Positions 32,916 through 43,976 of a stretch of 64,000 bases of DNA are shown here, piece after piece (position 1 is the stretch's first letter; the number at the start of each line of letters is the position of its first letter). The stretch is from assembly GCA_032249735.1 (NCBI GenBank), contig JAVVHA010000011.1, forward strand, positions 1 through 64,000, given 5' to 3'. The translations under genes and the position numbers were made by a program. This DNA comes from Dehalococcoidia bacterium. Lineage in GTDB: Bacteria > Chloroflexota > Dehalococcoidia > SM23-28-2 > HRBIN24. The notes under the pieces are model-generated. The model did no database searches, was not told the DNA's origin, and saw only the letters and a list, made by a program, of their open reading frames with translations.

Positions 32916-33563
32916 CTACACCGGCCTGGCCACCCCCAGAGCCTGAGGCCTTATGAACACCGTGGGGGGCAGAGGTGGGACGGGGGTAAGTATCTCCAGG
33001 CGCACCAGGCGAAACCCTGCTTTCTCCATCAGGCGAGGGGTATCGCGGTTGGGATGACAGCCAGCGGCCAGCCACCGCCAGAGGGGTGTGATGGCGTCCT
33101 GGGCCCAGGCGCCCAGGCGATGGTGGTAGCGCACATGCTCGAAGAAGCGCAGCTCACCGCCAGGACGTAGGACCCGCCTCACCTCCATTAGGGCACGGCC
33201 CACGTCTTCCACGCTACAGAAGACAAAGGTGGCCACTACGGTATCGAAATAGCCGGTGGGGAAGGGCAGGTCTTCAGCGCGGGCCTGCAGGATGGTGATG
33301 GGGAGGCCCAAGGCGCGGGCCCGTCTCTTGGCCCGGGCCAGCATGTAAGGGTCGGGCTCTGTGGCCACCACGGCTGCGGGGTCCTGGTAGTATGGAAAGC
33401 TGGCGCCCGTGCCACAGCCCACCTCCAGGACGCGTCCGCGCGCCTGGCCCACCACCTCATGGCGCACGCGGCGCATGAAGGTGCTCTCAGCTCCGGCCAT
33501 CAAGAAGTCATAGAAGGCGGCAAACCACTTGTGGCCCTTCATAGTGTCAGGGGGTTGGCCCAT
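32916..33563 (-). CDS. Class I SAM-dependent methyltransferase
   Basis: A ~215-residue methyltransferase. SAM motif I is RVLEVGCGTGASFPYY; an acidic post-motif follows in VVATEPDPYMLARAKRR, motif II is YFDTVVATFVFCSVEDV and motif III LRPGGELRFFEHV. The N-terminal AAFYDFLMAGAES and the C-terminal WRWLAAGCHPNRDTPRLMEKAGF resemble METTL7/UbiE-like proteins acting on lipids or thiols. The start is uncertain (ATG 33563 or 33542; neither has a good site). It is divergent from the MATE gene across a 12-bp palindrome. Confidence 0.88.
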   Translation of the reverse strand: MGQPPDTMKGHKWFAAFYDFLMAGAESTFMRRVRHEVVGQARGRVLEVGCGTGASFPYYQDPAAVVATEPDPYMLARAKRRARALGLPITILQARAEDLPFPTGYFDTVVATFVFCSVEDVGRALMEVRRVLRPGGELRFFEHVRYHHRLGAWAQDAITPLWRWLAAGCHPNRDTPRLMEKAGFRLVRLEILTPVPPLPPTVFIRPQALGVARPV

Positions 33564-33569
33564 ATCATC

Positions 33570-33581
33570 GTAAGATCTTAC
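33570..33581. promoter_or_regulatory. 12-bp perfect palindrome between divergent methyltransferase and MATE genes
   Basis: GTAAGATCTTAC sits in the 33-nt gap between the two start codons, 6 nt from one and 15 nt from the other. Its position is where a regulator would control both genes. No regulator gene is adjacent. Confidence 0.45.
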
Positions 33582-33596
33582 CCTCTCATTAGGCCC

Positions 33597-34985
33597 ATGA
33601 GGAGGGAATCGGCGTCGGCCCGGCCTTTGGCCGTATCCACCCTGGACGAGGCTCACCTGGGGCGCTCGGTGCTGCGGCTGGCGTGGCCAGTGATGGTCCA
33701 GCAGACCAGCTACTCCATGGTTCAACTGGTGGACACCTTTTTGGTGGGCCATCTTGGAGAGGATGCGCTGGCGGGGCTGCGTTTGGGCGCCCAGATCTTC
33801 TGGTTCGCCTTCGCTGGCATGACGGCGGTGGGGGTGGGGGCTATAGCTGTGGTCTCCCGCAGCGTTGGGGCGCAGCAATGGGCTCGGGCGCGGCGGGCGG
33901 TGGGCAGTGCCCTGGCCCTGGCCCTGGTTTGGGGGCTGCTGGTGGGGGTCAGCATGTGGGCCCTGGGCGGGTGGGCCTTGGGCATGCTGGGAGCCGAGCC
34001 AGAGGCCCGTCGCTTGGGGGGGCAGTATCTGCAGGCGGCGGCCTTTGGGATGCCGTTCTGGTCGCTCCTTTATGCTGCCAACGCCGTCCTGCAAGGGGCC
34101 GGGGATACCCGCACTCCCATGGCCGTGGGGGTGTTCATCAACGTGGTGAACATGGTCATGGCCTATTCGCTAATCAATGGTGTTGGGCCTTTTCCGTGGT
34201 TGGGGGTGGCAGGTTCGGGGGCGGGCTTCACCATCGCTGCTTTCCTGGGGGCTGTGGTCATCTTGTGGCTTCTGGCATCCGGCCGCCTCCTCCTAAGGTG
34301 GTCGCCCTCATCGTGGCCGCTATTTCATCGTTCGGAGGCGGCCAGGGTGGTGCAGGTAGGGCTGCCCACGGCCCTGGAGCAGGCCCAGTTCAACATGGCC
34401 TTCATGCTGTACACCCGCATCGTGGCCTCCCTGGGCACCACGGCGGTGGCCGCCCATGGGGTGGCCTTGGCTGTCCAAAGTTTGGCCTTCAACGCTGGTA
34501 TGGGCATAAGCGTGGCCACGTCCGCCCTGGCTGGGCAGGGGCTGGGGGCAGGCCGCCCCGACTTGTCGGAGCGGGCGGTGTATGCTGCTGCCCGGTATGC
34601 GTCCTTGGTCATGGGCAGCGTGGGGCTGGTGTTGATGGTGTTGGGACATCCCATCGTCTCCCTCTTTGTGGGCGGGGAGGGGGCAGAGGAGGTGGTGGAC
34701 ATCGGGAGCCGCCTCATGTTCATCTTCGGGTTTGCCATGCCCGTGCTGGGGGCCAACCTGGCCTTCAGCGGTGGCCTGCGGGGGGCAGGCGATACACGGG
34801 CGGTCATGCTCATCATGGCCTTTGGCACGTGGGTAGTACGCCTGGGCCCCGCCTACCTTTTGGCCATCACAGCCGGGTTGGGGGCGCCGGGGGCTTGGGC
34901 GGCTGCCGTGATGGACATAAGTGCCCGCACCTTCCTCATGTGGTGGCGGTTCCGCAGCGGCCGCTGGAAGCAGATTCGCGTGTAG
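33597..34985 (+). CDS. MATE family efflux transporter
   Basis: A 462-residue, 12-helix multidrug/toxin exporter of the MatE family, using a Na+ or H+ gradient. Two MatE halves are recognisable: LRLAWPVMVQQTSYSMVQLV with VDTFLVGHLG in the first and VGLPTALEQAQFNMAFMLY in the second. GDTRTPM and GDTRAVM repeat motifs occur near the ends of the two halves. The first ~17 residues are a hydrophilic N-terminus. ATG 33597 has only a weak site (TTAGG). Substrate unknown. Confidence 0.93.
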   Translation: MRRESASARPLAVSTLDEAHLGRSVLRLAWPVMVQQTSYSMVQLVDTFLVGHLGEDALAGLRLGAQIFWFAFAGMTAVGVGAIAVVSRSVGAQQWARARRAVGSALALALVWGLLVGVSMWALGGWALGMLGAEPEARRLGGQYLQAAAFGMPFWSLLYAANAVLQGAGDTRTPMAVGVFINVVNMVMAYSLINGVGPFPWLGVAGSGAGFTIAAFLGAVVILWLLASGRLLLRWSPSSWPLFHRSEAARVVQVGLPTALEQAQFNMAFMLYTRIVASLGTTAVAAHGVALAVQSLAFNAGMGISVATSALAGQGLGAGRPDLSERAVYAAARYASLVMGSVGLVLMVLGHPIVSLFVGGEGAEEVVDIGSRLMFIFGFAMPVLGANLAFSGGLRGAGDTRAVMLIMAFGTWVVRLGPAYLLAITAGLGAPGAWAAAVMDISARTFLMWWRFRSGRWKQIRV

Positions 34986-35039: not shown

Positions 35040-35252
35040 ATGAGTAAGGTCATCATCTACACCCTGGCCGGCTGCCCCACCAGCCAGAAGGCCTTGCGGG
35101 CCTTGCGGGAGCGGGGCATCGACTTCGAGGAGCGGCGGGTGGACGAGGACCCCCGCTGGTGGGAGGAGGCCCTTAAGTACTCGGTCACCGTGCCCATCAT
35201 CATCTGGGGCGAGGGCGATGTGGAGATAGGCTGGGAGGGAGAGCACGGCTGA
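35040..35252 (+). CDS. Glutaredoxin-like protein
   Basis: A 70-residue thioredoxin-fold protein: strand KVIIYTLAG, active site CPTS (one Cys), helix QKALRALRERGIDFEERRVDED, then TVPIIIW with the cis-Pro. The final segment is shorter than in typical glutaredoxins. A single Cys at the first active-site position suggests a monothiol mechanism or Cys-based carrier. It ends 19 nt before the cysS fusion and may share its transcript. Thiol-related genes follow (cysteinyl-tRNA synthetase, ccdA, tlpA). Confidence 0.82.
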   Translation: MSKVIIYTLAGCPTSQKALRALRERGIDFEERRVDEDPRWWEEALKYSVTVPIIIWGEGDVEIGWEGEHG

Positions 35253-35271: not shown

Positions 35272-37452
35272 GTGCCGGCCCACCCCCTCTGGCTTTATAA
35301 CACCCTGAGCCGCCGCAAGGAGATGTTCCACCCTCTGCAAGAGGGGAGGGTGGGCATATACTCCTGCGGCCCCACTGTGTACCGCTTCGCCCACATCGGC
35401 AACCTGCGAACCTACCTGATGGCCGACTGGCTGCGGCGGACGTTGGAGGCCCTGGGCTACCAGGTGGTGCACGTCAAGAACATCACCGATGTAGGACACA
35501 TGCGCCAGGAGCAGCTGGAGCGTGGGGAAGACAAGGTGGTGGCCGCTGCCCTGGCCGAGGGCAAGACCCCCCAGGAGATCGCCCAATTCTACACCGCTGC
35601 TTTCCTGCGGGATGAGGCCCGTTTGGGCATCCTCCCCGCCCATGTTTACCCCAAGGCCACCGAACACGTGGAGGATATGATCGGCCTCATATCTCGCCTC
35701 CTGGAGCGGGGCTACGCCTATGTGCGGCAAGGGAATGTATACTTCGATGTGTCCAAGTTCCCCCGCTATGGCCAGCTATCGGGGCAGATGGGCCTAGGCC
35801 TCCTGGCAGGGGTGCGGGTAGAGACTGATCCTCTCAAAGATGACCCCCGCGATTTCACCCTCTGGAAGGCGGCGGAGCCTGGCCGTGTCCTTAAGTGGCC
35901 GAGCCCCTGGGGTGAGGGGTTCCCAGGCTGGCACATCGAGTGTTCGGCCATGGCCATCCGCTATCTGGGCCCCCATCTGGACATCCATACAGGTGGGGTG
36001 GACAACATCTTCCCCCATCATGAGGACGAGATAGCCCAGAGCGAGGCCGCCTACGGTGCCCCGTTCGTGCGGTACTGGGTGCACGGCCAACACCTGCTGG
36101 TGGACGGGGTGAAGATGGCCAAGTCCACAGGCAACGTTTACACCCTGGACCATCTGGAGATGCGGGGGTTCGAGCCCCTGGCCTTCCGCTACTTATGCGC
36201 CACTGTGCACTACCGCCGCCGCATGAACTTCACGTGGGAAGCCCTCGCTGCTGCCCAAAGAGGCCTGCTGCGTCTGCGGCTACACGCCCAGGGCGAGGGG
36301 AAAGGCTCTTCCAACCCCTCCCTAGCGCAAAGGCTGCGTCTTCTCTTTTGGGAGGCGGTGTGCGACGACCTCAACATACCGCGAGCGCTGGCGGTAGCCT
36401 GGATGGTGGCTCGCTCGGGGCTCCCTGGCCCCCTCAGGCGCCAGCTGCTTTTGGAGTTCGACCGCGTGCTGGGCCTGGGGCTTGACAGGGAGGCGGAGCC
36501 CTGCGAGCTGCCGCAAGAGGTGCGTCGCCTGGTGCAGAGGCGGCGGAGCCTCCGGCGGCAGGGCCGCTTTGCAGAGGCCGATGCCATCAGGGCAGAACTG
36601 CTGGGCCGCGGCTACGAGGTGCGGGACGAGGGCCCCGTCACCCACGTCCTGCCGCGACCCCGTTGGGCCCAGCGGCCGGCCACGATAGCCCGCAGCCAGG
36701 ATGTCCCTCTGCTGCTGGAGCGGCCCGCCGAGCGCCGCATCACCGTTAGCCTGCTGGCTAGGGACGATCGCCCCCATCTGGAGGAGTGCCTGGCCCACCT
36801 CTTGCCATATCTGGGGGAAGAAGACGAGGTCATCGTGGTCGATAACGGCTCCGACGACGACACCGGCCCCTGGCTGGACACCATCTCCGCCAGGGATGGG
36901 CGGGTGAAGGTAGTGCATGCTGACCACTTCTTGGGGGCGGCTGCTGCCCGTAACATCACCATGCGCCTGGCCCGTGGGCGCTGGTTCCTGTGGCTGGACA
37001 GCAGCGTGCGTCTGACAGGCGACATATCTCCAGCTCTGGAGAAGGCCTTCGCCGATGCCTCGGTGGGGATGGTGGGGCGATGGGGCCTATGTACCTCTGA
37101 CCTGCGCCACTTTCAAGAAGTCGAAGCCCATGGCGAGGTGGACGCTCTGGCGGGGTACCTTATGGCCCTGCCGCGGGAGGTTGTGGCTCAGCTGTTCCCC
37201 CTGGACGAGAGGTTCCGCTTCTATCGACATCTGGACCTGGACGTGAGCCTGCGCGTAAGGGCCCTGGGGCGCCGCCTTCTGTGTGACCCCTCGCTGCCTG
37301 CCCACCGCACCGTCCATTGGGAATGGGAGAGGACGCCCCCCGAAGAGCGGGATCGCCTCAGCAAGGCCAACTTCTATCGCTTTCTGCGGCGCTGGGGGCA
37401 CAGGGTTGACCTTTTGGTCTCCAGATGCGCCCCCGACTCCTCCATTGTATGA
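35272..37452 (+). CDS. cysS: Cysteinyl-tRNA synthetase fused to a family 2 glycosyltransferase domain
   Basis: A 726-residue fusion. Residues 1-465 are a complete class I CysRS: zinc ligands C32, C224, H249 and acidic neighbours in HHEDE; HIGN at 41-44; KMAKS at 281-285; and a normal C-terminal helical domain ending near LPRPRW. A ~25-residue linker follows. Residues ~490-726 are a GT-A (GT2) domain with ITVSLLARDD, VIVVDNGSDDDT, AAAARNITMRLARGRW, FLWLDSS in the place of DxD, and a late FYRHLDLDVSLRVRALG that resembles the GT2 catalytic ED region. The frame is continuous with no stop at the junction. CysRS is normally 450-480 residues. GTG 35272 has GAGG 6-7 nt upstream. The appended enzyme's acceptor is unknown. 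Confidence 0.93.
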   Translation: MPAHPLWLYNTLSRRKEMFHPLQEGRVGIYSCGPTVYRFAHIGNLRTYLMADWLRRTLEALGYQVVHVKNITDVGHMRQEQLERGEDKVVAAALAEGKTPQEIAQFYTAAFLRDEARLGILPAHVYPKATEHVEDMIGLISRLLERGYAYVRQGNVYFDVSKFPRYGQLSGQMGLGLLAGVRVETDPLKDDPRDFTLWKAAEPGRVLKWPSPWGEGFPGWHIECSAMAIRYLGPHLDIHTGGVDNIFPHHEDEIAQSEAAYGAPFVRYWVHGQHLLVDGVKMAKSTGNVYTLDHLEMRGFEPLAFRYLCATVHYRRRMNFTWEALAAAQRGLLRLRLHAQGEGKGSSNPSLAQRLRLLFWEAVCDDLNIPRALAVAWMVARSGLPGPLRRQLLLEFDRVLGLGLDREAEPCELPQEVRRLVQRRRSLRRQGRFAEADAIRAELLGRGYEVRDEGPVTHVLPRPRWAQRPATIARSQDVPLLLERPAERRITVSLLARDDRPHLEECLAHLLPYLGEEDEVIVVDNGSDDDTGPWLDTISARDGRVKVVHADHFLGAAAARNITMRLARGRWFLWLDSSVRLTGDISPALEKAFADASVGMVGRWGLCTSDLRHFQEVEAHGEVDALAGYLMALPREVVAQLFPLDERFRFYRHLDLDVSLRVRALGRRLLCDPSLPAHRTVHWEWERTPPEERDRLSKANFYRFLRRWGHRVDLLVSRCAPDSSIV

Positions 37453-37474: not shown

Positions 37475-38248
37475 ATGGAGATAGGTGGGGTAGGCCTCGG
37501 CGTGGCCTTTGCCGCCGGTGTCCTATCATGTCTTTCGCCGTGCCTCCTCCCTTTGGTGCCCTCTTACATCGCCTACCTGATGGGCACATCGGCCCAGGGG
37601 AAGCCAGCGGCCGCCATGGCGCCCGGGGGGACGGTGGTGGCCATACGGCCGGTGGCCATTACCTCTGGTAGTCCCCTAGGGCATGCCCTTGGGTTTGTGA
37701 GCGGGTTCTCGCTGGTGTTCATCGCCTTTGGTGCCTCCTTGGGGCTCTTGGGGTACTTCTTGCGCCAGCACCGCGATGTAGTGCAGAAGGTGGCGGGCTC
37801 CCTGCTCATATTGCTGGGCCTGCACCTGGCGGGCGTCATCACCATCCCGTTTTTGGAGCAGGAGCGGCGCCTAGGTGTGGATGCGGCCCGGGGATATATT
37901 CGCTCCTTCTTGGTGGGGGCGTCCTTCGCTGCGGGGTGGAGCCCTTGCATAGGCCCCACATTGGGGGCCATCTTGGCTGTGGCGGTATCTGGGGGCAGCG
38001 TCATGGAGGCCGTCCTATTGCTGGCGGCCTATTCGGCGGGGCTGGCCATCCCCTTCCTGGTCATGGGCCTGGCCTTTAACGCTCTCCTGCCCGTTTACCG
38101 ATGGCTGAAGAGGGCTGGGGGTGTCATCAACTATGTGAGCGGGGCCATGTTAGTGGTGGTAGGGATCCTCATATTCACTGGTAGCCTTATCAATCTCAAT
38201 AGCCTCTTCAACTGGGGCCCCCTGTCCGACCTGGGCTCCAAGCTGTGA
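37475..38248 (+). CDS. ccdA: Cytochrome c biogenesis / thiol transporter CcdA
   Basis: A 257-residue membrane protein with six predicted helices that carries reducing equivalents from cytoplasmic thioredoxin to the outside. Redox cysteines are in VLSCLSPCLLPLVPSY (helix 1) and AAGWSPCIGPTLGAIL (helix 4). It starts at ATG 37475, 22 nt after the cysS fusion, and precedes a TlpA/ResA-like gene by 7 nt, its natural partner for maintaining reduced extracytoplasmic thiols, for example apocytochrome c. Confidence 0.95.
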   Translation: MEIGGVGLGVAFAAGVLSCLSPCLLPLVPSYIAYLMGTSAQGKPAAAMAPGGTVVAIRPVAITSGSPLGHALGFVSGFSLVFIAFGASLGLLGYFLRQHRDVVQKVAGSLLILLGLHLAGVITIPFLEQERRLGVDAARGYIRSFLVGASFAAGWSPCIGPTLGAILAVAVSGGSVMEAVLLLAAYSAGLAIPFLVMGLAFNALLPVYRWLKRAGGVINYVSGAMLVVVGILIFTGSLINLNSLFNWGPLSDLGSKL

Positions 38249-38255
38249 CGGCGTC

Positions 38256-38870
38256 ATGAGGTGGGACCTGCGGAGCAGGCTTCTGGCCCTTGTGGGCGTA
38301 GCGGTGATTGTGGCGGTGGTTTTGTTACCGTTAAAGGTGCTGGGGCTTCTGGGGCGGCAAGGGGGGCTGGAGGAGGCCCGACTGGTGGAGACAGGCCCAC
38401 CAGCTGGGGTGGGGGGTTATTCCGTGGGGCCGGAGCGAGGGCAATTCGCCCCCGATTTTGAGGCGCCCACCTTAGAAGGGGGCCAGAAGGTGCGCCTAAG
38501 CGATTTTCGTGGTCGCCCCGTCTACCTCAACTTCTGGGCCACGTGGTGCGGGCCCTGTGAGCGGGAGCTCCCGGACATCGCTCGCCTGCGGCGTTCTCAC
38601 CCCGACCTTGTGGTGATAGGCATCAACCGGGCCGAGCCGCCGGAGCGGGCTCTTCGGTTCCTGAAGAACCTCGGGCTTTCGGGGAGCAGCTCCCCCTTCA
38701 CGGCCTCTGTAGCCGACCCCACTGACGTGCTATTCCCTGCTTATAGGGGCATCGGCATGCCCTTCAGCGTTTTCCTCAACCGTCAGGGGCGGGTAGTAGC
38801 CGTGTATAATGGCCTCCTCCCTCTGGAGAAGATGGAGGAGATGTACCGCTTGGCGGCAGAGACGGACTGA
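38256..38870 (+). CDS. TlpA/ResA-like membrane-anchored thioredoxin
   Basis: A 204-residue thiol-disulfide oxidoreductase. An N-terminal membrane anchor (LLALVGVAVIVAVVLLPLKV) is followed by a linker and an AhpC-TSA/Redoxin domain with APDFEAPTLEGG, the active site WATWCGPCERELP (CGPC) and the cis-Pro in GIGMPFSVFLN. The domain should face the outside and receive electrons from CcdA. Probable end of the Grx-cysS-ccdA-tlpA transcript. Confidence 0.94.
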   Translation: MRWDLRSRLLALVGVAVIVAVVLLPLKVLGLLGRQGGLEEARLVETGPPAGVGGYSVGPERGQFAPDFEAPTLEGGQKVRLSDFRGRPVYLNFWATWCGPCERELPDIARLRRSHPDLVVIGINRAEPPERALRFLKNLGLSGSSSPFTASVADPTDVLFPAYRGIGMPFSVFLNRQGRVVAVYNGLLPLEKMEEMYRLAAETD

Positions 38871-38983: not shown

Positions 38984-39058
38984 GGGCCCGTAGCTCAGCG
39001 GAAGAGCGGGGGACTTTTAATCCCAGGGCCGTGGGTTCGAATCCCACCGGGCCCTCCA
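38984..39058 (+). tRNA. tRNA-Lys (anticodon TTT)
   Basis: A 75-nt cloverleaf. Acceptor GGGCCCG/CGGGCCC; D arm GCTC-AGCGGAA-GAGC; anticodon loop CTTTTAA giving TTT; T arm GTGGG-TTCGAAT-CCCAC; encoded CCA. Two oddities: the discriminator base is T (bacterial tRNA-Lys usually has A), and the top pair of the anticodon stem (27-43) is a G-A mismatch. It is probably functional, since all other pairs are intact. Confidence 0.88.
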
Positions 39059-40879: not shown

Positions 40880-40911
40880 AACATGTTGGCTTCGCTTACA
40901 GGAGGGGCAGC

Positions 40912-40944
40912 GCCGAGGGCCCCTTGTAGGTTTGGCCTCTCGGC
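40912..40944 (+). promoter_or_regulatory. Leader hairpin upstream of rpsL
   Basis: GCCGAGGGCC (40912-40921) pairs with GGCC-T-CTCGGC (40934-40944), ten pairs with one bulged T around a 12-nt loop, in the 5' leader 22 nt before rpsL. A candidate site for autoregulation by a ribosomal protein; no known motif is matched. Confidence 0.4.
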
Positions 40945-40966
40945 CATTTATTTTGGGGTGAGTGTT

Positions 40967-41380
40967 ATGCCGACCATAAACCAGCTGGTGCGAAAGGGGC
41001 GGCGGCCGGTGAAGAAGAAGTCTAAGGCCCCCGCTCTCCTATACAGCTTCAATAGCCTGAAGGGCACACTGCGGGTGGTGCCTTCCCCCCAGAAGAGGGG
41101 GGTCTGCACCGCTGTGCGCACCATGACCCCTAAGAAGCCCAACTCCGCCCTGCGCAAGATAGCCAAGGTGCGCCTCACCAATGGCATCGAGGTGACGGCT
41201 TACATCCCTGGGGAGGGGCACAACCTGCAGGAGCACTCCATCGTCCTGGTGCGGGGGGGCAGGGTCAAGGACCTGCCCGGTGTCCGCTACCACATCGTGC
41301 GGGGAGCCCTGGACTGCGCCGGCGTGAGCGGGCGCCGTCAGCAGCGCAGCAAGTACGGGGCGCGGCGTCCCTCCAGCTAA
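40967..41380 (+). CDS. rpsL: Small subunit ribosomal protein S12
   Basis: A 137-residue uS12, a decoding-centre protein. The start is [35 protein letters not shown] holds the conserved streptomycin-sensitivity lysine and [11 protein letters not shown] the second. The ATG at 40967 has GGGGTGAG upstream; an upstream in-frame start at 40883 is rejected since it would add residues foreign to S12. First gene of the super-operon. Confidence 0.98.
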
Positions 41381-41395
41381 TGAAGGTGCTTCACC

Positions 41396-41869
41396 ATGCC
41401 TAGACGCAGAGGTCGTGTAGTTAGGCGTGAGGTCCCGCCAGACCCCAAGTACGGGAGCGTCTGGGTGCAGAAGATGATCAACCACATCATGTGGAAGGGA
41501 AAGAAGAGCAAGGCCGAGAAGATCGTCTATAAGGCCCTTGAGCTGGTGCGTCAGCGCACCGGGGAGGACCCTGTTAAGGTCTTCGAGCAAGCGGTGCGCA
41601 ACTGCATGCCGGTGCTGGAGGTGCGCCCACGGCGGGTGGGCGGGGCCACCTATCAGATCCCCATAGAGGTGCGGCCCGAGCGTCAGCTCTCCTTGGCTAT
41701 GCGCTGGCTGCGCGATGCTGCCCGCTCCCGCAAGGGCCGCCCCATGTTCGAGCGGCTGGCGGCCGAGATCTTGGACGCCTCCCGAGGCACGGGGGCGGCC
41801 GTCAAGCGGCGCGACGATGTCCACCGCATGGCCGAGGCCAATAGGGCTTTTGTGCACTACCGGTGGTAG
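41396..41869 (+). CDS. rpsG: Small subunit ribosomal protein S7
   Basis: A 157-residue uS7, which nucleates the 30S head and contacts the E site. It starts [13 protein letters not shown] and contains [31 protein letters not shown] and [12 protein letters not shown]. Standard length; 15 nt after rpsL. Confidence 0.98.
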
Positions 41870-41888
41870 TAGGAGGCCTGGGAGGTCT

Positions 41889-43976
41889 ATGTTGGAGCAG
41901 GTATCCATCGAACGACTACGTAACATCGGCATCATCGCCCATATAGATGCCGGCAAGACCACCGTCACCGAGCGTATCCTCTATTTCACCGGCCGCACCT
42001 ACAAGATAGGGGAGGTGGACGAGGGGACGGCCACCATGGACTATCTGCCCCAGGAGAAGGAGCGGGGCATCACCATCACCGCTGCTGCCACCACCTGCCT
42101 CTGGCGCGACCATGTGATCAACATCGTCGACACCCCTGGGCATGTGGACTTCACGGTGGAGGTGGAGCGGAGCCTGCGCATCCTGGATGGCGGGGTGGTG
42201 GTGTTCGAATCTGTCCATGGCGTGCAGAGCCAGTCGGAGACGGTGTGGCGGCAGGCCGACCGCTATAAGGTGCCTCGCATCTGTTTCGTCAACAAGATGG
42301 ACCGGATGGGTGCCGACTTCTGGCGCACGGTGAACATGATCAGGGAGCGGCTGGGGGCGCGCCCGGTGGCCATCCAGATACCCATAGGGGCTGAGGGCTC
42401 CTTCCAAGGGGTGGTCGACCTGGTGGAGGAGGTGGCCTGGGTCTTCTCTGACGACCCCACGGTCCCCCCGCAGCGCCTTCCCATCCCCTTCGAGCTCAGG
42501 GAGGAGGCCCGCCGCCGCCGCGAGCAGATGATCGAGGCCCTGGCGGAGGTGGACGACCAGATCCTCATGAGCTATGTAGAGGGGCATCCCCTCACGCCAG
42601 CGGAGATCAAGAAGGCCATCCGGCGGGCCACCATCGCTTATCTCATCACCCCCGTCCTATGTGGGGCGGCCCTGCGCAACAAAGGCATTCAGCCCCTCCT
42701 GGATGCCATCGTGGACTACCTCCCCTCCCCCGTGGACCTGCCGCCGGTAAGGGGCATCGACCCCCGCACGGGGGAGGAGGTAGAGCGGCATCCCAGCGCC
42801 GATGAGCCCTTCAGCGCCCTGGCCTTCAAGGTGGTGGCCGACCCCTATGTGGGGCGTCTGGTGTACTTCCGGGTCTATTCCGGCCGCCTGCGCCAGGGCA
42901 CCAACGTCTACAACGCCAGTCGCCGGCAGCGGGAGCGGATGGGGCGCATCATGCGCATGCACGCCAATCGGCGGGAGGACATACCGGAGGTGACGGCGGG
43001 GATGATCGCCGCTACCGTGGGCCTCAAGAACACCTTCACCGGGGACACCCTCTGCGCCGAGGAGGCCCCTATCCTCCTGGAGGCCATCAAGTTCCCCGAG
43101 CCGGTGGTCTCGGTGGCCATCGAGCCCCGGGCCAAGGACGACCAGGAGAGATTGGCCGTCACCCTGGCTCGCATGTCGGAGGAGGACCCCACCTTCCGCT
43201 ACCGCTACGACCCGGAGACGGGCCAGACCATTATCTCGGGCATGGGGGAGCTGCACCTGGAGATCGTGGTGGACCGCATGCGGCGAGAGTTCGGGGTGGA
43301 GGCGCGTGTGGGGCGGCCCGAGGTGGCCTACAAGGAGACCATCACCCGCCCCGCGCGGGCTGAGGGGCGCTTCATCCGCCAGACGGGCGGTCGCGGCCAG
43401 TACGGAGTGGTGGTGGTGGAGGTGGAGCCCCTGCCCCGCGGCTCCGGCTTCCAGTTCGAGGACCGCACCGTGGGGGGCGTCATCCCCAAGGAGTTCATAC
43501 CAGCGGTGGAGAAGGGCGCCCGCCAGGCCCTGGAGGCGGGGGTGTTGGCCCACTACCCCGTCATCGATGTCAAGGTGACCCTGGTGGATGGCCAGCACCA
43601 CCCGGTGGACTCCTCCACCTTCGCCTTCGAGATGGCTGGGTCTATGGCTGTCCAGGAGGCCCTCAAGCAGGCAGCGCCGGTGCTCCTGGAACCCATCATG
43701 AAGTTGGAGATCGCCACCCCGGAGGAGTTCTTCGGCGACATTTTGGGCGACATCACCGCCCGCCGGGGCCATGTGGTGCAAGTGGACCATCAGGGGCACC
43801 TACGCATCGTCACCGCCCTGGTACCCCTGGCTGAGCTCTTCAATTACGCCACCGACTTGCGCTCCCTCTCCCAGGGCCGCGCTACCTACACCTTGGAATT
43901 CCACCACTACGAGCCCGTGCCCCAGCAGCTGGCGGAGGCCATCATCGGCCGCGCCCGCGGGGCAGTGCGGAGGTGA
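41889..43976 (+). CDS. fusA: Elongation factor G
   Basis: A 695-residue translocase GTPase. G motifs: [15 protein letters not shown] (P-loop), [28 protein letters not shown]. Domain IV and V motifs follow. ATG 41889 lies 3 nt after GGGAGGTCT; a longer frame into rpsG is a shadow. No tuf gene follows; the next gene is rpsJ, so EF-Tu is encoded elsewhere. Confidence 0.98.

Follow-up and report, generated by a model that had tools for sequence, protein, structure and literature searches.

Bacterial cysteinyl-tRNA synthetases (CysRSs; TIGR00435; structures 1li5 and 1u0b from E. coli and 3sp1 from Borrelia) combine a catalytic core, a zinc site, and an anticodon-binding domain. In the E. coli CysRS complex, G34 forms hydrogen bonds with R427 and D436 and is stacked upon by W432, and R423 lies in the G34 water network (PMC12684709). 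E. coli CysRS also synthesizes CysSSH by means of the lysines of its KIIK and KMSK motifs, and a K76A substitution markedly lowers persulfide synthesis (PMC5660078). The CysRS relative MshC acts in mycothiol synthesis (PMC9736012); it (TIGR03447; 3c8z and 8hfm) has a CysRS-derived fold and lacks the anticodon-binding domain. A cysteine-tRNA enzyme with an extra domain has been described in bacterial SepRS, which carries an N-terminal ThrRS-like editing domain (PMC8762117) but has no glycosyltransferase (GT) and belongs to a different synthetase family. Glycosylation of tRNA is known from QTGAL and QTMAN, animal queuosine-tRNA glycosyltransferases that act on Q34, in the anticodon loop, of tRNA-Tyr and tRNA-Asp (PMC12313893). 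No publication on a CysRS-glycosyltransferase fusion was found in the open-access literature by title and abstract (papers on cysteine coding included), nor was any on another synthetase joined to a glycosyltransferase in the literature searched. To our knowledge, QTGAL and QTMAN contain no aminoacyl-tRNA synthetase (aaRS) domain.

The window analyzed here is a 64,000-nt stretch from a Dehalococcoidia bacterium (GCA_032249735.1, contig JAVVHA010000011.1, positions 1 to 64,000, forward strand). At positions 35272 to 37452 of its + strand lies a frame of 726 amino acids that begins with GTG, runs without interruption, and encodes a CysRS followed by a GT-A glycosyltransferase domain. The parts of this frame and the genes around it are as follows.

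33459..34985, + strand: MATE-family transporter, further upstream of the fusion; a neighbor across much of the order, and only within the order
35040..35252, + strand: Uxx-star glutaredoxin (Grx)-like gene, 70 residues; its end lies 19 nt before the fusion
35272..36486, + strand: CysRS catalytic and helical core, residues 1-405, with C32/C224/H249/E253, HIGN at 41-44, NITDVGH at 70-76, and KMAKS at 281-285
36505..36633, + strand: CysS_C anticodon-binding mini-domain, residues 412-454, with R424, R428, F433, D437, and D452
36634..36732, + strand: linker, about residues 455-487, including a conserved SxDVxSLLxEP-like stretch
36733..37395, + strand: GT-A (GT2-like) domain, residues 488-708, with VDNGS at 523-527, ARN at 559-561, DSS at 576-578, and DERFRFYRHLDLDVS at 645-659
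37475..38248, + strand: CcdA/DsbD-like membrane protein; in the window's family alone, it immediately follows the fusion
38256..38870, + strand: TlpA-like protein with a thioredoxin fold; it lies behind the fusion in the window's family alone

Pfam assigned tRNA-synt_1e (PF01406) to residues 19-329 (E 7e-98), CysS_C (PF23493) to residues 412-454 (E 1.4e-6, above the gathering score), and Glycos_transf_2 (PF00535) to residues 501-613 (E 3e-16; 60.2 bits against a gathering score of 23.3). The model of the full-length fusion had a pLDDT of 88 and a pTM of 0.85, and its match to CysRS in 1u0b, a complex with tRNA-Cys, spanned 479 columns (TM by target, 0.85). An initial annotation, made from the window alone, had proposed a single uninterrupted frame of CysRS plus GT, in an unusual architecture that leaves the CysRS intact; the open frame, the Pfam domains, the TIGR00435 score given below, and the GT-A fold all agree with that proposal. 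The linker that it described is present, but its estimate of ~25 residues is not correct, as CysS_C reaches residue 454. A frameshift between residues 465 and 490, which it had named as the outcome that would undo the fusion, as well as any other frame error or an assembly chimera, is excluded because the same one-frame fusion recurs in dozens of independent genomes.

The CysRS part of the fusion looks active and tRNA competent. It scored 408.5 bits against TIGR00435 cysS (cutoff, 340), which by score makes it a CysRS, and C32, C224, H249, and E253 aligned with the zinc ligands C28, C209, H234, and E238 of E. coli CysRS, whose reference sequence was verified against 1li5 and 1u0b. HIGN, KMAKS, and the first three of these ligands were thus found where the initial annotation had placed them, with E253 now added as a ligand. 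According to the alignment, HIGN replaces HIGH and KMAKS replaces KMSKS of the E. coli enzyme; the NITDVGH insert, the C-terminal GT-A domain, and the status as a second genome copy further distinguish the fusion from bacterial CysRSs. Among 48 fused proteins compared, the zinc ligands, H41, G43, N44, M282, K284, and S285 were invariant and K281 was present in 47. The anticodon-binding domain, recognized by PF23493 above its gathering score, also retains its contact residues: R424, R428, F433, D437, and D452 align with E. coli R423, R427, W432, D436, and D451, and R428, D437, R440, and D452 were found in all 48 fused proteins. As regards a role like that of QTGAL, a tRNA glycosyltransferase, what the fusion shows is that the residues that read G34 are kept. 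The earlier statement that this CysRS has a full C-terminal domain, unlike MshC, holds in that CysS_C is present.

An AlphaFold2 model of CysS_C plus the GT domain (pLDDT 93.7) gave a clear GT-A fold, with a VIA-align Z score of about 20 to GalNAc-T2 and Z scores of 18 to 21 to GT2/GT27 enzymes (GalNAc-T2, PcManGT, WrtF, and RmlT). PF00535, the predicted model, and the fold search hence all speak for the GT-A domain that had been proposed, and the non-GT fold that would have contradicted it was not seen. With GT2/GT27 enzymes (PF00535), the domain shares the fold, a VDNGS-like motif, an ARN motif, and a conserved late Asp; unlike them, it lacks the second Asp of DxD and has CysS_C in front. 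The DxD metal motif is usual, though not universal, in GT2. Its replacement by DSS, which the initial annotation had pointed out, extends to the whole group: D576 was present in 45 of the 48 fused proteins, the third position was never Asp in any of the 48, and the second Asp was absent from fused and stand-alone members alike. Because every member lacks this residue, the GT may be inactive. The residues H552, G555, N561, G569, D610, F614, Y629, R635, D645, and E646, together with R649-R652, D655, W685, R693, S697, and N700, were nevertheless invariant among the 48 fused proteins, and D655 was also found in 25 of 25 stand-alone GTs, although the GT part has fewer invariant columns than the CysRS part. 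Judged by this pattern, the putative GT pocket is under constraint, with an altered metal site. The domain scored below the cutoff of every specific NCBIfam GT family listed (e.g., MftF).

Within the order, 21 of 25 genomes carry the fusion, a few copies in fragmentary assemblies being interrupted by a frameshift or the end of a contig. All four genomes that lack it belong to one family (f2), and three other families of the class have it as well. A scan of named genomes for loci matching two GT peptide patterns, the counts from which are accordingly lower bounds, returned at least 80 GT-domain loci, at least 47 of them intact fused frames. Carriers of fused frames include Dehalococcoidia, Ktedonobacteria (Thermogemmatispora, the named carrier strains of which are isolates), Thermoflexales, a Chloroflexales metagenome-assembled genome (MAG), and Dormibacterota, plus MAGs labeled Thermodesulfobacteriota (one of them Desulfarculaceae) and Nitrospinota, labels that may be wrong. 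Another unusual CysRS fusion was seen in MAGs labeled Thermodesulfobacteriota (L236, at G070:C12:38000-44000, and L237, at G071:C279), in which an N-terminal cysteine-synthase-like part (CysK/CysM, by eye) precedes a degenerate CysRS without HIGH and KMSKS.

The idea that this gene might be the sole cysS of its genome did not hold: a canonical CysRS is encoded at G000:C3:73376-74761 of the same genome. Another CysRS is present in each of the nine fused genomes with a completeness of at least 90% (G000-G003, G005, G013, G015, G046, and G049), genome completeness being what limits such co-occurrence counts, and in quick tree searches the canonical Dehalococcoidia CysRSs formed a clade apart from the fusions. 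We conclude that the fusion is not the housekeeping copy but a second, apparently working CysRS. In one genome (G039), a member of the fusion clade without a GT (L057:4457-5833) lies directly behind the canonical CysRS gene; one of its zinc ligands is changed from C to D and its KMSKS is gone, so such a copy can decay while translation is maintained. A single ordinary tRNA-Cys (GCA) is present in the window's genome. An orthogonal second tRNA-Cys was sought in a genome scan and none was found; two weak RF00005 matches were not called tRNA by ARAGORN. We read these matches (G000:C10:828-903 and G000:C26:15375-15446) as half-tRNA relics; they have related GC-rich flanks, may be integration remnants, and one is ~80 bp from the only tRNA-Cys gene.

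The GT domain also occurs in stand-alone relatives that lack the synthetase core yet keep the CysRS anticodon mini-domain before the GT, an observation that is new. All 25 intact stand-alone proteins are without the core, and all 25 begin with CysS_C (of five tested against the Pfam model, two fell just below the gathering score). Their median pairwise identity is 42%. R424, R428, D437, and D452 are present in all 25, and position 433 is always aromatic. Of 42 columns, 6 are near-invariant, and these include the three contact positions that are identically conserved (p 0.0017). The conserved anticodon residues may in part mirror the fold, since canonical CysRSs share them. On the GT tree (unrooted, from a quick search), at least three changes separate fused from stand-alone forms, and one stand-alone protein (L103) groups with the Thermoflexales fusions; this suggests, as far as an unrooted quick tree can, that loss of the synthetase core happened on more than one occasion and that CysS_C and the GT were kept together. 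Seven of the 10 stand-alone genomes examined (G066, G079, G080, G081, G083, G088, and G090) encode a sister CysRS as a separate gene, and these separate sister CysRSs group with the fusions in a single clade (support, 100/100). No sister CysRS was found in the other three (G078, G082, and G084), genomes that may be incomplete.

We favor, with a probability of roughly 0.4, the reading that the fusion is a second, intact CysRS whose anticodon mini-domain would act as a fixed handle, holding the GT-A domain on tRNA-Cys. This role is favored because the CysRS looks tRNA competent and because the GT is inherited together with the anticodon-reading domain even where the core is missing. The mini-domain would dock tRNA-Cys through its GCA anticodon, and the GT-A domain would then act on the bound RNA or on its charged form, most likely by transferring a sugar to a tRNA-Cys nucleoside via an active site that is altered and poor in DxD. 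Charging of the tRNA with cysteine would also fall to this protein where CysRS and GT are fused, and to the separately encoded sister CysRS where they are split. QTGAL and QTMAN resemble this proposed tRNA-directed role in their described function. Against it stands the ordinary, single tRNA-Cys of the window's genome, which has no partner tRNA, and among the fusion loci compared, no neighbor conserved across phyla supports RNA modification. The full claim, namely, that a bacterial GT finds tRNA-Cys by means of a CysRS anticodon domain and glycosylates it, whether fused or standing alone beside a sister CysRS, is somewhat unlikely in our estimate. If it were true, glycosylation would be added to bacterial tRNA chemistry, in the form of a hitherto unknown glycosylated tRNA in bacteria. 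The fusion is conserved across several phyla, both of its halves are strongly constrained, and loss of the core with retention of the anticodon mini-domain makes for a sharp prediction, i.e., that the GT works on tRNA-Cys, which the cultured carriers Thermogemmatispora and Ktedonobacter make testable.

The gene that precedes the fusion in the window scored 54.4 bits against the Uxx-star model NF041212, which is below the cutoff of 66 and is the best score among all NCBIfam models, and it matched PF00462 above the cutoff. By tblastn, every one of the 22 Dehalococcoidia-type fused loci had a Grx-like gene 23 to 95 nt upstream of the aligned fusion start, and the other 25 fused loci, one of them labeled Dehalococcoidia (L106), had none. 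Because this split follows lineages, it counts as a single association passed on by descent, rather than as 22 separate ones. The Uxx-star Grx-like protein is probably coexpressed with the fusion in Dehalococcoidia. The initial annotation had counted the Grx-like gene among the next genes, together with ccdA and tlpA, and had described all as thiol genes; in fact the Grx-like gene sits upstream, ccdA and tlpA lie downstream, and of this thiol neighborhood the Grx-like gene is conserved in its lineage, whereas ccdA-tlpA adjoins the fusion in the window's family alone. In L051/L093 and L095, the first redox cysteine codon of the Grx-like gene (L051:8696-8905 and L095:4248-4454) is UGA, as in a selenoprotein member, and it probably specifies selenocysteine; folding of the RNA downstream of these UGA-bearing genes gave no convincing SECIS element.

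The same Grx-like gene, immediately upstream in all 22 loci, is what keeps alive a reading in which the fusion produces or alters a low-molecular-weight thiol: its CysRS part would supply activated cysteine, as MshC does, or Cys-tRNA, the GT would add a sugar, and the Uxx-star Grx would use the product. Mycoredoxin uses mycothiol, and mycothiol synthesis employs both a CysRS relative and a GT. The MshC-like version of this reading, as thiol ligase or thiol glycosylation, was put forward in the initial annotation and has been weakened by the scores, the missing Msh genes, and the retained tRNA-reading domain. Although both proteins have a CysRS-derived fold, the fusion scored only 215.7 to 217.6 bits against the MshC model TIGR03447 (cutoff, 485.1), its CysS_C is a domain that MshC lacks, and its anticodon-reading residues are invariant. 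In the window's genome, there is no MshC-like gene and no MshB-like protein above 20 bits, and the MshA-like match (360 bits) is below its cutoff of 462.5, so the MshA and MshB scores do not show the co-occurrence with MshA, MshB, and MshD that accompanies MshC; with MshB and MshC missing, the mycothiol pathway was rejected for this genome. Several fused relatives carry, in addition, a separate truncated MshC-like paralogue (~400 amino acids) that falls in its own clade, and the other 25 fused loci have no Grx. Since the GT keeps the tRNA-reading domain after loss of the core, a function on or through tRNA-Cys is favored over the cysteinyl-AMP or thiol idea, and we regard the thiol reading as improbable, with a redox link still entertained because the Uxx-star Grx-like gene precedes the fusion in every Dehalococcoidia-type locus. 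A cysteine persulfide synthase with a glutaredoxin-like partner would be consistent with the KMAKS lysines kept in the fusion; however, none of the 48 fused proteins has Lys at the position equivalent to K76 of KIIK (42 have Ala), and because this residue is missing, we consider a persulfide function very improbable indeed.

Two further explanations were considered. The GT-A domain could be a pseudo-enzyme that transfers no sugar and gives the second CysRS affinity for tRNA-Cys, dimerization, or regulation, an arrangement for which the loss of DxD in all members and the smaller number of invariant columns in the GT part would speak. It is well known that domains appended to an aaRS can alter the handling of tRNA, and one catalytic example has been described (PMC7694997). 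A pseudo-enzyme accounts less well for the pocket-like pattern formed by D655, Y629, R635, D645, E646, R649-R652, W685, and R693 (48 of 48 fused proteins, D655 also in 25 of 25 stand-alone ones) and for the persistence of the GT domain without the synthetase core, and we judge it somewhat unlikely; were it correct, the fusion would still represent a novel means of tuning a synthetase that has been duplicated. Alternatively, the protein could be a spare CysRS that serves in resistance to stress or inhibitors, with the GT as an incidental passenger. The other CysRS present in every genome at least 90% complete would fit such a spare, as would the G039 member without GT, zinc ligand, or KMSKS, which marks the copy as dispensable for translation; a passenger, however, would keep neither invariant residues across phyla nor its place after loss of the synthetase core, which makes this explanation quite improbable.

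Truncated MshC-like paralogues of ~400 amino acids proved to be common in Chloroflexota (L060-L069, L071-L073, L215-L219, L225, L226, L238, and L239); they grouped in a clade of their own and were below the MshC cutoff where scored. In four Ktedonobacteraceae loci (L143, L154, L156, and L157), the stand-alone CysS_C-GT gene follows a ManC-like (mannose-1-phosphate guanylyltransferase-like) gene, named by eye, which offers a hint, from this single lineage, of a GDP-mannose donor. Other neighbors, likewise named by eye, were a GatB/YqeY-like gene beside the Thermogemmatispora gene (a lead from a single lineage), a QueA-like (queuosine) gene directly upstream of one fusion (L125; a single case), and a FemX-like gene upstream of one stand-alone gene (L103; also a single case). 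Downstream of the locus, the window contains a tRNA-Lys gene near 38984 (38984-39055) and rpsL, rpsG, and fusA at 40883-43976.
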